DNA of 24,161 nucleotides from a virus. The position numbers and the translations under genes were made by a program. This document shows positions 3,028-23,690 of the stretch, one piece after another (within the stretch, counting starts at the first letter, position 1; each line of letters starts with the position of its first letter). Location of the stretch: the IMG/VR virus record IMGVR_UViG_3300030328_004755, positions 10,507-34,667 of that record, one strand, 5' to 3'. Below the pieces are notes generated by a model. The model worked only from the letters and a program-made list of their open reading frames with translations. It did not search any database and was not told the DNA's origin.

Positions 3028-3855
3028 ATGAAAAATATGTATGATTACAGTAAAGTAGTCAAACTAATGAGAGATTTTTTTCAGGGTGAGAAGGGTTTTA
3101 CAGAAGTCCCTGCTCAAAGTAGGCAATCTATATTAGCTGCTTGTGAAGACCCTGCGACAATATCTCAGTATATATTTAGTGGTGTTAATTACCCATTACC
3201 TCAAACAGGGCAAATGTGGCTAGAGAGAGACTTGTTGGAAAACCCTAAAGTAAAAGGTGTTTTTTGTATAACAACTAGTTATAGAAACGAACCTAATCCA
3301 GTAGAGGGAAGGCACGATAAAATCTTTCCTATGTTTGAATTTGAGTCTCATGGCAATATAAATGATATGATTAAACTAGAAGAGGAATTGCTAGAGCATT
3401 TAGGGTTTGGCTCGGATCACCATAAGATTACATATGATGATGCTTGTAATAAATATGATACAAAAGAATTAGATTATGATGAAGAAGAAGCGTTGTGTAA
3501 GGACTTTACTCCTTGTACTTTTTTAACGCATTTTCCATTGAGGACTCATCCATTTTGGAATATGAAACACGCAGGTAATGGTATTTATAATAAAGTAGAT
3601 GTTATAATGCATGGTATGGAAACTATTGGTTCTGCTGAACGAGCAGTAGATGTAGAGGAAATGAGAAACCAATTTCATAACATATCAGATGGTGAGTATG
3701 CTAGATTGCTTTATAATCATTTTGGCGAAAAAAGAGTTGAAGATGAATTAGAAGAATATTTAGCTTTAGATATGTTTGAAAGATTTGGTGGTGGTATAGG
3801 AGTAACAAGAATGGTATCTGCTTTAAAGGCAGCAGAATTATTAAAAGGAAATTAA
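3028..3855 (+). CDS. Stand-alone class II aminoacyl-tRNA synthetase core (Asp/Asn/Lys subclass-like)
   Basis: The protein is 275 residues and consists only of a class IIb catalytic core. A motif 1-like GFTEVP lies at 23-28. Motif 2 is TSYRNEPNPVEGRHDKIFPMFEFE at about 83-106, with R86, E88 and H96 in the expected ATP-binding places. Motif 3 is GGGIGVTR at 254-261. An ETIGSAER segment matches the 'GE(I/L)xxGxxR' region that reads the amino acid. The OB-fold anticodon-binding domain that normally precedes the core is absent, so it should activate an amino acid without reading a tRNA anticodon. Known stand-alone relatives include archaeal AS-AR, bacterial AsnA (both make asparagine) and EpmA (modifies EF-P). 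Which it resembles is undecided. It starts directly after the previous stop and ends in a TAATG overlap. Confidence 0.8.
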   Translation: MKNMYDYSKVVKLMRDFFQGEKGFTEVPAQSRQSILAACEDPATISQYIFSGVNYPLPQTGQMWLERDLLENPKVKGVFCITTSYRNEPNPVEGRHDKIFPMFEFESHGNINDMIKLEEELLEHLGFGSDHHKITYDDACNKYDTKELDYDEEEALCKDFTPCTFLTHFPLRTHPFWNMKHAGNGIYNKVDVIMHGMETIGSAERAVDVEEMRNQFHNISDGEYARLLYNHFGEKRVEDELEEYLALDMFERFGGGIGVTRMVSALKAAELLKGN

Positions 3856-13862: not shown

Positions 13863-15846
13863 TATAACAATAAAGTTTCAAGCTAAAGGTAATGAAGCCT
13901 TAGAAATTGCTATTAAAAAACTCGATATAGCGACTAAGCGTTTAACAGGAAAAACTTCTAAATACGAAAAAGAGACTAAAAAAGGAGCTATGGGAAACAG
14001 ACTTTTAAGTAATTCTTTTGCTACTTTAAGGTCAAAAATGCTTTTGGTTAATTTTGCTATGGGTTTGGGAATTACTCAGTTAATAAAATTTGGTAAACAA
14101 GCTGCAAAAGTTCAATCAATGGAAAGAGCTTTTACTAATTTGTCAGGAGGGACTGCAAATGCCTCTATTGCAGTAAATAAATTAAAAGATGCTACCGATG
14201 GTACGATTTCAGAGTTTGATCTTTTTCAACAAGCTAATAATGCTATGATACTTGGAGTTACTAAAAATTCTGATGAAATGGCTAAAATGTTTGATATGGC
14301 TCAAAGATTGGGAGCTGCACTAGGTAAAGACACTAGACAATCTATTGAATCTCTTATTACTGGTATTGGTAGGCAATCTAGGTTGATGTTGGATAATATT
14401 GGTATAATTGTAAAAACAGAAGATGCTTATAAAAAATATGCCAATGAGCTTGAAAAGAATGTAGATCAATTAACTGATTCCGAAAGAAAACAAGCGTTTA
14501 TGAACGCTACATTAGAGGCAGCAGAAGAAAAATTAACTAGAGTTGGAGATGAAGTTTTATTTGCTGATGCACATTTTCAAAGAATAGCAGTATCTTTGGA
14601 AGAATTATCTTTAACTGTAGGTGAAGCATTATTACCAGTTATAGAGCCTTTGGCAGATCAAATGGTTAAACTTTCTGAAATTGACTCTAAAGATATAAAA
14701 GAATTTGCTACTGCTATGTCTTTGACAGCAGGGACTTTTGTAGCCGCTAATGTTGCTGCAAATGCTTTTGCTTTAGGAATAGATGCTGTAAAATTAAAAC
14801 TTAGATCATTGGCTATAAGTACAGGAATAGGTGCGGTATTTGTAGTTATGACATTAACTTTAGAAAAATTAATATCTGAAATGGGAATATTTGAGGATAG
14901 CGTAGAAGATGCTATAGTCCCTACTAAAAGTTTTGCTGATCAAATAAAAGAAGCAGAAATAAACCAAAAACTTTTTAACGAAAAATTAAAGCAAGGCAAT
15001 GATCTTTTTAATGATAGAGATATTTTGCTTATTAAATTAAAAGAAGCTCAAGGAGGATTAACAGCTTTAGAAGCTAGACAAGCAATTCTTAATGAAAAAA
15101 GAAAAGATTTATTAGTTGAATTAAATGGTATAGAAGACCAGGGTTCAATTAGGGCTATAGAATTAACTAATAAAAGAATAGAATTAGATATAGAAAGCCA
15201 AAATATAAAAAAAGAAATTGCAGACTTAGAATTAAAAGAAGATCAGAGAAAAGCTATTGCACAAACTAGAGATAGTGCTATGCAAGAATATATGTTAGAA
15301 TTGCAATCTCAAAAAGAAGATTTAGACAAGCAAGAGATAGAACTGTCTAAAGAAATTAGAAAATTAAAAAAACAAATGCTAGATGATACCGTTAAAAATG
15401 CTATGTTAGGGAATCAAAGCGTAAAAGATGCTATGATAAATACAATTAAAGCAGAAACAGCAGAAGCTATAGCAGGATATATATCCTCTTTATTTCAGAA
15501 TTTACCATTCCCTATTGCAGCTACCTTGTCAGCAGGAGCAGGTGCTTTTGTAGGTTCTATAATGAATAAAAATGTACCTACTTTTGAACAAGGTGGTATG
15601 GTTGGTGGTCGTAGACATTCGCAAGGTGGCACTATGATAGAGGCAGAGCAAGGTGAGTTTGTTATGAGTAGGAGTGCTGTCGAGGCAGTAGGTATAGAAA
15701 ATATGAATAGAATCAATCAAGGTGGTGGTGCAGGTATTACTGTAAATGTATCAGGAAATGTAATGACACAAGACTTTGTAGAAAATGATTTAGCAGAAGC
15801 AATTAAAGAGGCAGCTCGTAAAGGTGCTGATTTCGGTATTTCATGA
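13846..15846 (+). CDS. Tape measure protein
   Basis: 666 residues. An N-terminal helical region is followed by hydrophobic segments at about 64-80, 285-312 and 322-343, long coiled-coil stretches at about 365-515 (charged heptads, no Pro), a hydrophobic Ala/Gly segment at 540-573, and a Gly-rich end (FEQGGMVGGRRHSQGG) usual for tape measures. Such proteins set tail length; at about 0.15 nm per residue the tail would be near 100 nm. It follows the gpG/gpT-like chaperone and overlaps it by 17 bases, and it is coupled to the hub gene by an ATGA overlap. No lytic domain is seen. Confidence 0.85.
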   Translation: MAKGNNITIKFQAKGNEALEIAIKKLDIATKRLTGKTSKYEKETKKGAMGNRLLSNSFATLRSKMLLVNFAMGLGITQLIKFGKQAAKVQSMERAFTNLSGGTANASIAVNKLKDATDGTISEFDLFQQANNAMILGVTKNSDEMAKMFDMAQRLGAALGKDTRQSIESLITGIGRQSRLMLDNIGIIVKTEDAYKKYANELEKNVDQLTDSERKQAFMNATLEAAEEKLTRVGDEVLFADAHFQRIAVSLEELSLTVGEALLPVIEPLADQMVKLSEIDSKDIKEFATAMSLTAGTFVAANVAANAFALGIDAVKLKLRSLAISTGIGAVFVVMTLTLEKLISEMGIFEDSVEDAIVPTKSFADQIKEAEINQKLFNEKLKQGNDLFNDRDILLIKLKEAQGGLTALEARQAILNEKRKDLLVELNGIEDQGSIRAIELTNKRIELDIESQNIKKEIADLELKEDQRKAIAQTRDSAMQEYMLELQSQKEDLDKQEIELSKEIRKLKKQMLDDTVKNAMLGNQSVKDAMINTIKAETAEAIAGYISSLFQNLPFPIAATLSAGAGAFVGSIMNKNVPTFEQGGMVGGRRHSQGGTMIEAEQGEFVMSRSAVEAVGIENMNRINQGGGAGITVNVSGNVMTQDFVENDLAEAIKEAARKGADFGIS

Positions 15847-18800
15847 TAACTTCTTTAAAATTTAATTCTGACACATTATCGAATACTACTAATATTGTTC
15901 CTTTAGTTTATATAGAAAAAACTATTGCTGATGAGGTTAATATTATGGGATTTTCTACTTATCAATTAGAATTAACAGATATAAATGATAAGCCTTTGCA
16001 GTACCATCCTCTTTTGTTAAATATTCCTTCTATAAGTGAAAAAATAAACATAGAAACTAGAAAGTTTGTAATTTCATCTGTAACTTTAAATTTATCAAAC
16101 ATTGAATATTTAGGTGAAAAACTTAGTGATAAATATAATTTATTGATTAATTCTAATGTATATATTTATTACAAAACTCAAAGTGCAAATACTTTAGAAG
16201 AATGTTTAAAAGTATATTCTGGAAAAGTAAAAAGAATTAATCATTCGAATGAAGATATAAATCTAATTCTAGAAGATATGTCTCAAGAGAAAATACAAAA
16301 ACAAATTCCTAAAAATAAAATTCCTGATATTCCTGAAATTCAAGAGGAATATAGGCTAGAACCTATACCAATGGTGTATGGTAATGTAGAAAAATCTCCT
16401 TTAGTAAAATATGCTAAAAAAATAAATGTTGCTAATGATGGAGATTTAAATGAATATGCTGAAAAAATGAATTTTTTACCTGACAATATAGATGATTATA
16501 TATTACAAGATACAATTAATATTAATGGATATAAATATGATAATTTTATATACGCAGGATATTTTATAGGTGGCAATAATAGATTTAATACCCCTTTATA
16601 TATCTATGATAATGGTTATGGAAATATAGTAAATAAATATGATAATTTATCACAAAGTCTTGGTAATAATGTATTTATAAATTCCGACAAAACAATATTT
16701 ATTCAAAAAACTTATCAAGAAGATGGTACGCCTGTTAATTTAATTTCTCAAAATATATTAGAAGTAATTGCAGATTGTGAAACTTATGACCCATGTATGA
16801 TTAATCCTGTAGTTAAAAATAATGAATCAAACAATCAATCAGGTCTTTTTTTACCTGAAATAGTAAGTAGATTATATAGTAGGGGGTTTGATATTTCATA
16901 CTTACAAACCTCATATCCTAATGGCGATCCAGTCTCTTCAATAGTTTTAAATGAAAGTTTAGAATATAATGGAGAAATATATCAACCTATAGATACTATT
17001 TTTGATAAAAACACATCAGTATTTTTTGAAGGCATTTTAAAAGAAGGTAGTTTAGGCGATACTATTGGTGAAAATAATCAAAGATTAATGTTTATGTGCC
17101 AAACTAATTCTCCAAAAATAAACTACAAAAGAGGTGCTGTAATAGTAAATTGGAAAGGCTATGCAAGTACAGAGAATCTTGGAGAAAAACCTTTTTATAT
17201 TAAATTTATAAATACAGGCTTAAGCGATCCTGAAACAGATGTAGGTGAAGAAAGCAATATAGACCCTGTATTATGGTATTACAAAACTAGTTTTAATGAT
17301 GTTTTTTTTGGTGATGACCCTATTTTTAATGATTTGCCAGATAGTGCGGCATTAGGTACTTTTGGATTTATGTTTTATTTTCCCTCTGTTGGCGAAGGAT
17401 ATCAGACTGATGAATATACAAATTTTAATGTAAGATTTGATCAATTAAACTTGTCTTACCATTTAGAATTAGAAGATACTAACTTGCTTGAAAAAAATGA
17501 TTTTTACGCTAATGTTTATGGAAGGTGTAAAGAAGGAAATTATTATTATTATAGAGATTTTAATGCTAATTTTAAAATAAGCGATAATAATTTTATAGAC
17601 AATTTTTTAGATTCTAATTATAATTTATACAATTTTGATAATAATGTAGAGTATTTTATTTTAAATCCAAATGATACTTTTGATAATTTTATACATTATG
17701 TAAAACCTGATTCCTTAGAGCTTTCTAGGGCAACTATAGATGGCTCAATAGATGAAAATTATATTAATATTAATTTTACTGGTAAAGTTGTAGATTCAGA
17801 AGGGAATGATAACCTTAGTGGTGAACCTTCGATTCCCTACGATTTTAATAATATAGGTATTAAATTCTACAATAATGAAGAGATATATATATTTAAAACA
17901 GACAATAATTCATTACTAGATCAACAATATGGAATTTTAGGATTTTTACCATTATATAAACCTGCTGAAATAATTTCAAGTATTTTAAAACAAGAATGTA
18001 ATTATGAATTAGAAATTCCAGAAATAAATATAAATAATGTTGATTCAAATTATAAACAATGGAAAATGTCTTTCACTCAAAAAGACACAATAAATGGTAA
18101 AGATTTAATAGAAGAAATATGTCAATCAACAAAATCATTTGGAAGATTTAGAGGGTTTGATGAAAAATTTTCTTGGAATACAATTAAAGATAGCTATTCA
18201 GAGGAAGATATAGACTTTACAATTCCAAATCAAGATATAATAAGTTATAAATACAACAGAACTAAACTAGAAAATGTTAAAACAAAAATTAAAGTTAATT
18301 ACAATTATGATTATGCTACAAAGAAATTTACAAAAGAAACTGATGAAATAAATGTAAATCAATTAGTTTATCTTGAAAGTGGTTATAATTATAATTATTA
18401 TGGCATAGACGAAAATAATGAAGATAGTGCTTTAGAGTTTGAAAGTAAGTATATAAGAGATAATTATACTGCAGAACAGCTAAGAAACTGGTTGTTATCT
18501 TGGCACATGAACCAACACAGTTTACTTACATTACAATTATCTATAAAATATAATTTATTAGAAGTTGGTGATATAATTGCTTTTGATAAAGAAATACAAG
18601 GGTTGAAATTGTATGGTGAAACTTACACAGCTAATATGGGTTTAAATGAGGATGGTCTTTTAGTAGATTTAAATGAAACTTATAGAAATGGTCAATTAAT
18701 ATATCCTTATTTTATGATTTATGAAACAAAAAAAAGCATAGATAAAGTTGAAATAAAGTTAATACAATTACATCATAACGATCCTAATTTCTTTTTACCA

Positions 18801-19013
18801 CCACCTGAAGAAGGTGAGGATATAGACTTGACACCTACAGGCGATGTTAATTTAGATGGAAGCGTTGATGTATTAGATATAGTTGCTTTAATAGGACACA
18901 TACTAGAGACATCACAATTAACAGTAGACCAAGGATATGAAGCAGATTTAAATCAAGATAGTAATTTAGATATTTTAGATGTAGTTCAGCTAGTAGGGAT
19001 AATTTTACGATGA
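15843..19013 (+). CDS. Tail hub/tip protein with C-terminal dockerin-like domain
   Basis: 1056 residues, straight after the tape measure gene (ATGA overlap). The N-terminal region (ISSVTLNLSNIEYLGEKLSD, then LKVYSGKVKRI and LILEDMS) and the C-terminal third (RNWLLSWHMNQHSLLTLQLS, then LEVGDIIAFD) carry the beta-patterns of phage tail hub/tip proteins. The region 150-850 is very Asn/Asp/Tyr rich. After an acidic linker (PPPEEGEDIDL), residues 1001-1046 form two calcium-binding loops, DVNLDGSVDVLD and DLNQDSNLDILD, each followed by a hydrophobic helix (IVALIGHIL; VVQLVGIIL). This is a type I dockerin-like pair. A hub in the baseplate would meet the receptor first; the dockerin could anchor another protein. 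Confidence 0.75.
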   Translation: MITSLKFNSDTLSNTTNIVPLVYIEKTIADEVNIMGFSTYQLELTDINDKPLQYHPLLLNIPSISEKINIETRKFVISSVTLNLSNIEYLGEKLSDKYNLLINSNVYIYYKTQSANTLEECLKVYSGKVKRINHSNEDINLILEDMSQEKIQKQIPKNKIPDIPEIQEEYRLEPIPMVYGNVEKSPLVKYAKKINVANDGDLNEYAEKMNFLPDNIDDYILQDTININGYKYDNFIYAGYFIGGNNRFNTPLYIYDNGYGNIVNKYDNLSQSLGNNVFINSDKTIFIQKTYQEDGTPVNLISQNILEVIADCETYDPCMINPVVKNNESNNQSGLFLPEIVSRLYSRGFDISYLQTSYPNGDPVSSIVLNESLEYNGEIYQPIDTIFDKNTSVFFEGILKEGSLGDTIGENNQRLMFMCQTNSPKINYKRGAVIVNWKGYASTENLGEKPFYIKFINTGLSDPETDVGEESNIDPVLWYYKTSFNDVFFGDDPIFNDLPDSAALGTFGFMFYFPSVGEGYQTDEYTNFNVRFDQLNLSYHLELEDTNLLEKNDFYANVYGRCKEGNYYYYRDFNANFKISDNNFIDNFLDSNYNLYNFDNNVEYFILNPNDTFDNFIHYVKPDSLELSRATIDGSIDENYININFTGKVVDSEGNDNLSGEPSIPYDFNNIGIKFYNNEEIYIFKTDNNSLLDQQYGILGFLPLYKPAEIISSILKQECNYELEIPEININNVDSNYKQWKMSFTQKDTINGKDLIEEICQSTKSFGRFRGFDEKFSWNTIKDSYSEEDIDFTIPNQDIISYKYNRTKLENVKTKIKVNYNYDYATKKFTKETDEINVNQLVYLESGYNYNYYGIDENNEDSALEFESKYIRDNYTAEQLRNWLLSWHMNQHSLLTLQLSIKYNLLEVGDIIAFDKEIQGLKLYGETYTANMGLNEDGLLVDLNETYRNGQLIYPYFMIYETKKSIDKVEIKLIQLHHNDPNFFLPPPEEGEDIDLTPTGDVNLDGSVDVLDIVALIGHILETSQLTVDQGYEADLNQDSNLDILDVVQLVGIILR

Positions 19014-22707: not shown

Positions 22708-23454
22708 TCAACCCACCATCCGTTTTTTAGCTGCTTGTATAATGTCTTTAATTTCTTCTGAAGATGCTGATCGTTTTTCAACTTTTCTTTGTTCACTTAA
22801 AAATGCTCGTCTTTCTTTCTTAATTTTCTCATCACTTAAATCTACAAAAGAATTATTATTAGAAGAAGAATTATTTTTATTCCAATTTCCTGCCGCCATA
22901 TGCCACTTTTTCATCTTGTTCTTTCCGACCATCCAACCTTTAGACTCGTAAAAGCAAAAGAATTTTTCTGCTTCGTTTTTATAATCAGAGTATTTCATTT
23001 TTTTAAAGTAATTTATAACTTCATCTAAAGTTGGACTTTTAAACCTAACATCTTTTTTAACTTTAACCTTATCTTTATCTTTATCTTTCACCCTTGCGTA
23101 AGTGTTGCTCAAGGGTTGCTCAAGGGTTGATATACATACATTATTCTCCTCTAATATATTAATTGCAGACTTATGAGCATTTACATTAGGGTTTAAAGTG
23201 CCATATTGAAATTTTATAAAGTCTTTTATCCAATATTTATTATCTTTTATTGCCTCAACTTGCTTATCAAATGCTTTAGGGAGTTGTGTAACTTGGAAGC
23301 CAACCATAAACGAAGTCAGCTTCCAATTTACTTCCCAAATACCTGCATGATCACAAGAATCAGTCATATATATCCATAACAACTTTTCCTTTAGTGTTAA
23401 GTCCATAAACCAAGACTTAGACCATTTTTGGTTATCTGTGAATCGTTTAGCCAT
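22708..23454 (-). CDS. Phage replication initiator (lambda O-like / DnaD-like)
   Basis: 248 residues. The N-terminus KRFTDNQKWSKSWFMDLTLK with KEKLLWIYMTDSCDHAGIWE is the typical start of phage initiator proteins. A middle linker (about 110-135) is followed by a C-terminal domain with TLDEVINYFKKMKYSDYKNE and ESKGWMVGKNKMKKWHMAAG, which resembles the end of O-like/DnaD-like replication proteins. It binds the origin and recruits host helicase loaders. The linker is the site of iteron-like repeats (23097-23129). TAATG overlap with the SSB-like gene. Very likely essential for phage replication. Confidence 0.75.
   Translation of the reverse strand: MAKRFTDNQKWSKSWFMDLTLKEKLLWIYMTDSCDHAGIWEVNWKLTSFMVGFQVTQLPKAFDKQVEAIKDNKYWIKDFIKFQYGTLNPNVNAHKSAINILEENNVCISTLEQPLSNTYARVKDKDKDKVKVKKDVRFKSPTLDEVINYFKKMKYSDYKNEAEKFFCFYESKGWMVGKNKMKKWHMAAGNWNKNNSSSNNNSFVDLSDEKIKKERRAFLSEQRKVEKRSASSEEIKDIIQAAKKRMVG
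23097..23129 (-). repeat. Iteron-like direct repeats, candidate replication origin
   Basis: Three contiguous 11-base units on the - strand: CAACCCTTGAG twice (23119-23129, 23108-23118) and the diverged CAACACTTACG (23097-23107). An inverted half (CAAGGGTG) follows at 23089-23096, then a purine-rich AT region with AAAGAT repeats to about 23054. Position inside the initiator gene linker resembles lambda ori in gene O. Confidence 0.55.
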
Positions 23455-23690
23455 TAGAAAGGCATCCCATCATCTTCTTTTTTAGCTTTCAAATTATCAG
23501 CCAAATTTATACTGAGAGATAAGAAAGGTTTTCCACTTTCTTTGCCTTTTCTTTTCCAAGCTGATATAAAGAAATCTGAACCTTCAACATTAATTTTACC
23601 AGTCATATCAGGTTTCTTATCTTCAGGGTTATTCTTATCTTTTTTATCGTTAATAAATAATGCACCTTTATTTGTGTTATCGTATTCCAT
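23454..23690 (-). CDS. DUF736/SSB-like DNA-binding protein
   Basis: 78 residues. EYDNTNKGALFINDKKDKNN and INVEGSDFFISAWKRKGKES, then PFLSLSINLAD, match the DUF736-type small phage OB-like fold. It ends KKEDDGMPF, an acidic tail with Pro-Phe like that of SSB proteins, which usually docks replication partners. AGGAAAA ribosome site. TAATG overlap with the initiator gene. Probably binds single-stranded DNA. Confidence 0.65.
   Translation of the reverse strand: MEYDNTNKGALFINDKKDKNNPEDKKPDMTGKINVEGSDFFISAWKRKGKESGKPFLSLSINLADNLKAKKEDDGMPF

Follow-up and report, generated by a model that had tools for sequence, protein, structure and literature searches.

The replication initiator gene and its neighbourhood

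The window, by which we mean the whole 24,161-bp stretch of DNA analysed, comprises bases 10507–34667 of a 34,667-bp record from a marine-type phage (IMGVR_UViG_3300030328_004755). Its minus strand carries a gene for a 248-residue protein (Table 1) that is a replication initiator, judged by its domain, its neighbours and its relatives. The protein is laid out as an N-terminal winged-helix DNA-binding domain, a disordered (KD)n linker and a C-terminal helical domain. In the AlphaFold2 prediction the N-terminal domain has pLDDT values mostly of 86–97, and residues ~110–135 form the disordered linker. A fold search with the N-terminal domain gave generic winged-helix matches only (VIA-align, Z 4–5.6), and the plasmid RepA initiators 4pta, 4pt7 and 5kbj (Z 4.2–4.4) were tied with unrelated winged-helix proteins. 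For the C-terminal domain, which is presumed to contact the helicase, the loader or ssDNA, the fold search returned no clear PDB match, an absence that proves nothing. The C-terminal part has matches in PHROG families and among phage proteins, and several of these proteins precede a DnaB-type helicase, a DnaC-like loader or replication protein P. Searches of the initiator against Pfam-A (E up to 1) and NCBIfam found no family match, and neither the lambda O models of Pfam and NCBIfam nor the RepA_N domain (PF06970; Pfam-A, E up to 1) was matched.

The gene for a single-strand DNA-binding protein (SSB) abuts the start of the initiator gene, and NinB, HNH and RusA-like genes lie downstream. Across the whole record no protein matched a DnaB-type helicase or the DnaC/IstB family, so the host helicase is probably used. 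Three other products of the window, all encoded on the plus strand, were noted in passing. A large virion-type protein (15843–19013) has at its C-terminus what resembles a pair of dockerin type I repeats (GDVNLDGSVDVLDIVALIGHIL ... ADLNQDSNLDILDVVQLVGIIL); a 275-residue ORF (3028–3855) resembles the catalytic core of a class II aminoacyl-tRNA synthetase of the AsnRS/AspRS type, which is unusual in a 35-kb phage; and a 234-residue ORF (506–1210) resembles a sulfotransferase, with a QMGKVGSQSIKHSL start and a VLVREPMARNLSAFF motif.

Table 1. Features of the initiator locus, in window coordinates
Feature	Position	Strand	Basis
SSB gene, abutting the initiator start, upstream	23454..23690	-	PHROG 18154 and 7364, E about 1e-12
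Replication initiator gene, 248 aa	22708..23454	-	ORF; IMG/VR relatives; C-terminal PHROG matches
Initiator N-terminal domain, aa 1-105, predicted winged helix, presumed iteron-binding	23140..23454	-	AlphaFold2
Iteron 1, CAACCCTTGAG	23119..23129	-	Sequence and repeat tools
Iteron 2, CAACCCTTGAG, exact copy	23108..23118	-	Sequence and repeat tools
Iteron 3, CAACACTTACG, 8/11 identical	23097..23107	-	Sequence and repeat tools
Inverted iteron half-site CAAGGGT (ACCCTTG on the plus strand)	23090..23096	-	Repeat tools
Presumed DNA-unwinding element, purine-asymmetric AT tract GAAAGATAAAGATAAAGATAAGGTTAAAGTTAAAAAAGAT	23050..23089	-	Composition; noncoding in relatives
Initiator C-terminal domain, aa 137-199, conserved FYxSxGWxVGKxxMKxW motif	22858..23046	-	Sequence comparison

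Iterons and a purine-asymmetric tract in the linker

An earlier, sequence-only reading of this DNA had described three 11-base repeats in the initiator gene, two exact and one diverged, followed by an inverted half-site and a strongly purine-asymmetric AT region, all within the linker. These elements are present as described. On the minus strand the repeats run from 23129 to 23097, the array including the half-site (23090–23129) lies between the N- and C-terminal domains, and the linker reads, in order, CAACCCTTGAG-CAACCCTTGAG-CAACACTTACG-CAAGGGT-GAAAGATAAAGATAAAGATAAGGTTAAAG. The sequence after the half-site, GAAAGATAAAGATAAAGATAAGGTTAAAGTTAAAAAAGATG (23089–23049), holds the tract, and its translation, VKDKDKDKVKVKKD, is the KDKDKDK linker. 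The 40-mer adjoining the iterons is 80% purine on the minus strand, which places it in the top 0.9% of the record, and its A+T content is 80%, compared with 68% overall.

The array has the highest TRF score in the window (53; period 11, 2.7 copies). When the 34.7-kb record was scanned for three-copy arrays, it scored 21, against maxima of 12–18 in 30 Markov-2 genomes; higher scores went to three places of the record that are low in complexity or AT-rich. Its longest exact run at period 11 is 15 bases, a length matched in 6 of 60 Markov-2 genomes (some of these possibly artefacts of ambiguous source bases); by this measure alone, the array is only moderately unusual.

Conservation among relatives of the initiator

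A profile search of IMG/VR for relatives of the initiator gave 513 matches; among genome contigs, searched in the same manner for prophages, no relative was confirmed. The array is retained in the same codons at six IMG/VR loci of 62–74% identity and at a seventh (L010) of 55%. The iterons of these close relatives vary by genome (CAACACTTAAT, CAACTCTTAAT, CAACCCTTAAT), and the 11-bp register and an inverted AGGRGTT element are retained across them. Most relatives have the inverted copy directly beside the tract, and the position of iteron 3 is occupied in other genomes by either a direct or an inverted copy. When synonymous codons were shuffled so that the protein was unchanged, none of 1000 shuffles matched the observed repeat score for the window or for seven of nine relatives. 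Six of 1000 did so for L001, and L034, which has a KDKDKNKD linker without the array, scored at chance.

The association was also approached from the DNA and from the protein separately. A DNA-only scan of IMG/VR with the pattern CCCTTN{2,14}CCCTTN{0,30}GATAARGATAARGA, which allows core spacings of 7–19 bp, yielded 83 stretches, with an 11-bp spacing of the CCCTT cores in 74 of 84 matches and in 58 of the 66 unique contexts. Of the in-gene matches, 35 have an ORF of sufficient length and a recognisable start, and these encode a MAKRFTD-type N-terminal domain joined to C-terminal parts that vary; at least one other in-gene match (L115) encodes a protein with a different N-terminus. Conversely, 80 loci were picked by the N-terminal domain alone, and a low-complexity tract was present in 60 unique genes among them. 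In the 57 nt before the tract, the repeat period that scored best was 11 in 57 of these 60 and 12 in the other three; after synonymous shuffling, period 11 was best in about 25 of 60. For 44 of the 60 genes no more than 1 of 100 shuffles attained the observed score, and the first core lies 26 nt ahead of the tract in 23 of the 26 genes with exact cores. The N-terminal domain, the 11-bp CCCTT-core iterons and the purine tract co-occur in the window's genome, as in the MAKRFTD-domain initiator family described here.

Within this set the DNA is kept in some genes where the peptide has changed. The iterons of L333 (AAGGGGCTTAT) and L328 are inverted and encode KGLIRGL in place of the usual KPLISPL, and in L286, L296 and L319 a tract, CAAGGACAAGG, is read in another frame, giving QGQGQG in place of KDKDKD and hence (QG)n linkers.

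Modules outside the initiator gene

About a dozen matches to the scan pattern lie outside any long ORF, several of them directly after a metallophosphatase-like gene. Eight records with an intergenic module encode a full initiator of the family elsewhere (E 1e-78 to 1e-85), and none of the six of these initiators that were read out has a KD linker. A search for other tandem arrays in and around the initiator gene of linker-less relatives found nothing clear; many of these genomes hold the module in another place. A sequence-only model of the module matched 11 further places in linker-less relatives, with no ORF covering them on the strand of the module. The model was built with the window and its close relatives, so their matches to it are not independent; this applies to the match of the window sequence (E 3e-17) and to five relatives of the training set, in each of which the in-gene module is the sole strong match.

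The record of the window holds one module only, and other genomes hold two. G006 and G007 each have one in the initiator gene and one elsewhere, the iteron types matching, and G001 and G002 each have two modules of matching iteron type, about 10 kb apart and in opposite orientation, together with a third iteron pair, without a tract, at a promoter-like site. In a third subclade (e.g. L017, L030 and L032) there is no in-gene array and no match to the module model in the records, many of which are fragments. The cultured Pseudanabaena phage Pan5, which has the same or a related N-terminal domain and a KD linker, also gave no match to the model; only an inverted (palindromic) CCCCC pair lies beside its tract.

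At G001:C1:31096, G002:C1:15879 and G099:C1:6148 and in L191, L199 and L202, a pair of CCCTT iterons separates a promoter-like sequence (TTTG...TATCTTTGTAT) from a start codon; by inspection, the gene behind the pair has a peptidase-like product. The initiator gene of L264 (G091:C1:2900–4600) contains a second iteron pair, inverted, among the KKPFIRGLQGAYKLLW codons of its 5' end. Since iteron pairs without an AT tract occupy such promoter-like positions in several relatives, the iterons may also serve transcription, which suggests that the initiator acts as a regulator of transcription as well.

Taken together, the noncoding, inverted and frame-shifted copies, a period that does not fit codons and the outcome of the shuffles show conservation as DNA. 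Sequence comparison reveals a module that is maintained at the DNA level rather than as protein, that is associated with this N-terminal domain and that occurs in coding and noncoding positions alike. The comparison that the sequence-only reading had called for therefore finds the repeats in relatives, including second copies within a genome, rather than finding them absent or preserved only as protein.

Comparison with known replication origins

The sequence-only reading had likened the locus to the lambda origin. In lambda, the repeats lie in the middle of the initiator gene beside an AT-rich, purine-asymmetric tract (PMC5043065, PMC7466680) in which almost all purines are on one strand (PMC5043065). 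The likeness holds in design: in both phages the iterons lie within the initiator gene, between the DNA-binding and C-terminal parts, and are followed by an AT-rich purine tract, and the window phage also has an early, nin-like neighbourhood with NinB and a RusA-like resolvase. It does not extend to the repeats, which in lambda are four 19-bp inverted-repeat iterons bound by O dimers and in the window three 11-bp direct repeats with one inverted half-site. Nor does it extend to the proteins, since the window initiator matches no lambda O model and no loader was recognised; in addition, relatives of the window phage carry the module outside the gene.

Phage SPP1 combines direct repeats with an AT-rich unwinding element, and has one origin, oriL, inside the initiator gene (gene 38) and a second, oriR, in an intergenic position about 13 kb away (PMC6316719). 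This arrangement is paralleled by the in-gene and distant second copies of G006 and G007, and two modules are also present in G001 and G002, whereas the window's own record has no distant second copy. SPP1 differs further in encoding its own helicase and loader, and the likeness is one of architecture. In the RepA_N plasmid pSK41 a winged-helix N-domain binds repeats located centrally in rep, and the linker encoded by the origin is dispensable as protein (PMC5703833). The window initiator likewise combines a predicted winged-helix N-domain with mid-gene repeats, and the weak fold similarity to RepA N-domains is shared with other winged-helix proteins; however, it has no RepA_N match in Pfam, its repeats are different, and a plasmid is compared here with a phage.

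Initiators of Vibrio and gut phages have a homologous C-terminal domain and repeats at the linker position, and several precede helicase, loader or P genes, but their N-terminal domains are of other types (Lin1244_N or HTH_36 where tested) and their repeats differ. Vibrio phage 1.259.O, for example, has 11-bp TCCGGAG repeats at the linker position. Repeats in or near the linker of four such initiators (L213, L215, L218 and L219) comprise the 11-bp TCCGGAG type, a 21-bp perfect duplicate, three copies of a 10-bp AAATCAAAAC and a 23-bp repeat, pointing to in-linker origins as a common feature of this C-terminal domain class. A search of the literature for replication proteins with KDKDKDK linkers yielded nothing relevant. 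The system of the window would work in the manner of the lambda and SPP1 origins, but its initiator matches no recognised or named family.

A candidate replication origin and its alternatives

On the grounds of sequence and of analogy with these systems, the region is very probably the replication origin of the phage, set in the linker of its own initiator gene. We infer the binding, melting, helicase recruitment and firing of this origin from its architecture and from lambda, SPP1 and pSK41. The winged-helix N-terminal domain would bind the three direct CCCTT-core iterons, spaced about one helical turn apart, together with the inverted copy, and the resulting nucleoprotein complex would melt the adjoining purine-asymmetric AT tract. 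The C-terminal domain may then recruit the host replicative helicase while the phage SSB coats the opened strand, and the KDKDKDK linker would be largely a by-product of translating the unwinding tract. Nucleotide skews do not bear on this proposal: the cumulative GC skew has its extremes at the points (8.6 and 30.1 kb of the record) at which the genes change orientation, and GC, AT and purine skews are therefore uninformative as a test for the origin.

The converse, that the charged, disordered KD linker is a protein feature and the DNA repeats its by-product, is consistent with the predicted disorder and with the recurrence of the residues STL..PL.N in close relatives. It is nevertheless scarcely credible, because 11 is not a multiple of three and repeated peptides or codons cannot produce an 11-bp period, because synonymous shuffling abolishes the array, and because copies exist that are inverted, frame-shifted or noncoding, the last of which already contradict it. 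That the iterons are instead an operator, bound by the initiator or another regulator to control transcription next to an incidental AT tract, is improbable. Such a role is suggested by the tract-less pairs that sit behind a promoter-like sequence and ahead of a start codon in G001, G002, G075, G099, G021, G022, G024 and G030, and by the second, inverted pair at the 5' end of the initiator gene of G091, but the array of the window sits mid-gene, and the iterons mostly accompany the purine tract at the fixed 26-nt distance, in coding and noncoding contexts.

It is equally improbable that the origin lies elsewhere and that the in-gene array is a secondary site. One candidate for such an origin lies outside the window, in a 460-bp AT-rich noncoding gap at bases 2145–2603 of the window's record (G000/L008), which contains a 13-bp three-copy repeat (AAAATTATAAYCC), a palindrome (AATCACTTAAAGTGAT) and, at one end, a terminator-like hairpin. 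Relatives match this gap only in short, scattered pieces, while the in-gene module is the one strong model match in each of the five training-set relatives, and by inspection the position of the gap, after the hairpin and before the early genes, is promoter-like. The gap is probably the early promoter region and possibly a second origin. A role of the module in packaging, recombination or fork arrest rather than in the start of replication is very improbable: a noncoding module of G009 lies just upstream of a gene that on inspection resembles a terminase small subunit, and the second SPP1 origin has been proposed to stall forks (PMC6316719), yet most modules are away from packaging genes, and a location inside the gene, an associated initiator and a purine-asymmetric tract are typical of initiation sites.

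A broader reading, for and against which we see about even chances, is that a portable origin cassette of 11-bp CCCTT iterons, an inverted copy and a AAAGATAAGG tract serves a large, uncharacterised family of phage initiators. It would be located in the linker or between genes according to lineage, be duplicated to give two origins per genome, and tolerate inversion and change of frame. Were this true, the (KD)n and (QG)n linkers would be unwinding elements translated by accident, and the promoter-sited iterons would give the initiator control over an early gene as well. The module provides a sequence signature by which the probable replication origin can be found in the genomes of many uncultured phages, and it makes a puzzling low-complexity linker of the protein intelligible as a DNA element. 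Its noncoding, inverted, frame-shifted and duplicated copies are natural experiments on the ways in which an origin might occupy the gene of its initiator, leave it or be duplicated outside it.
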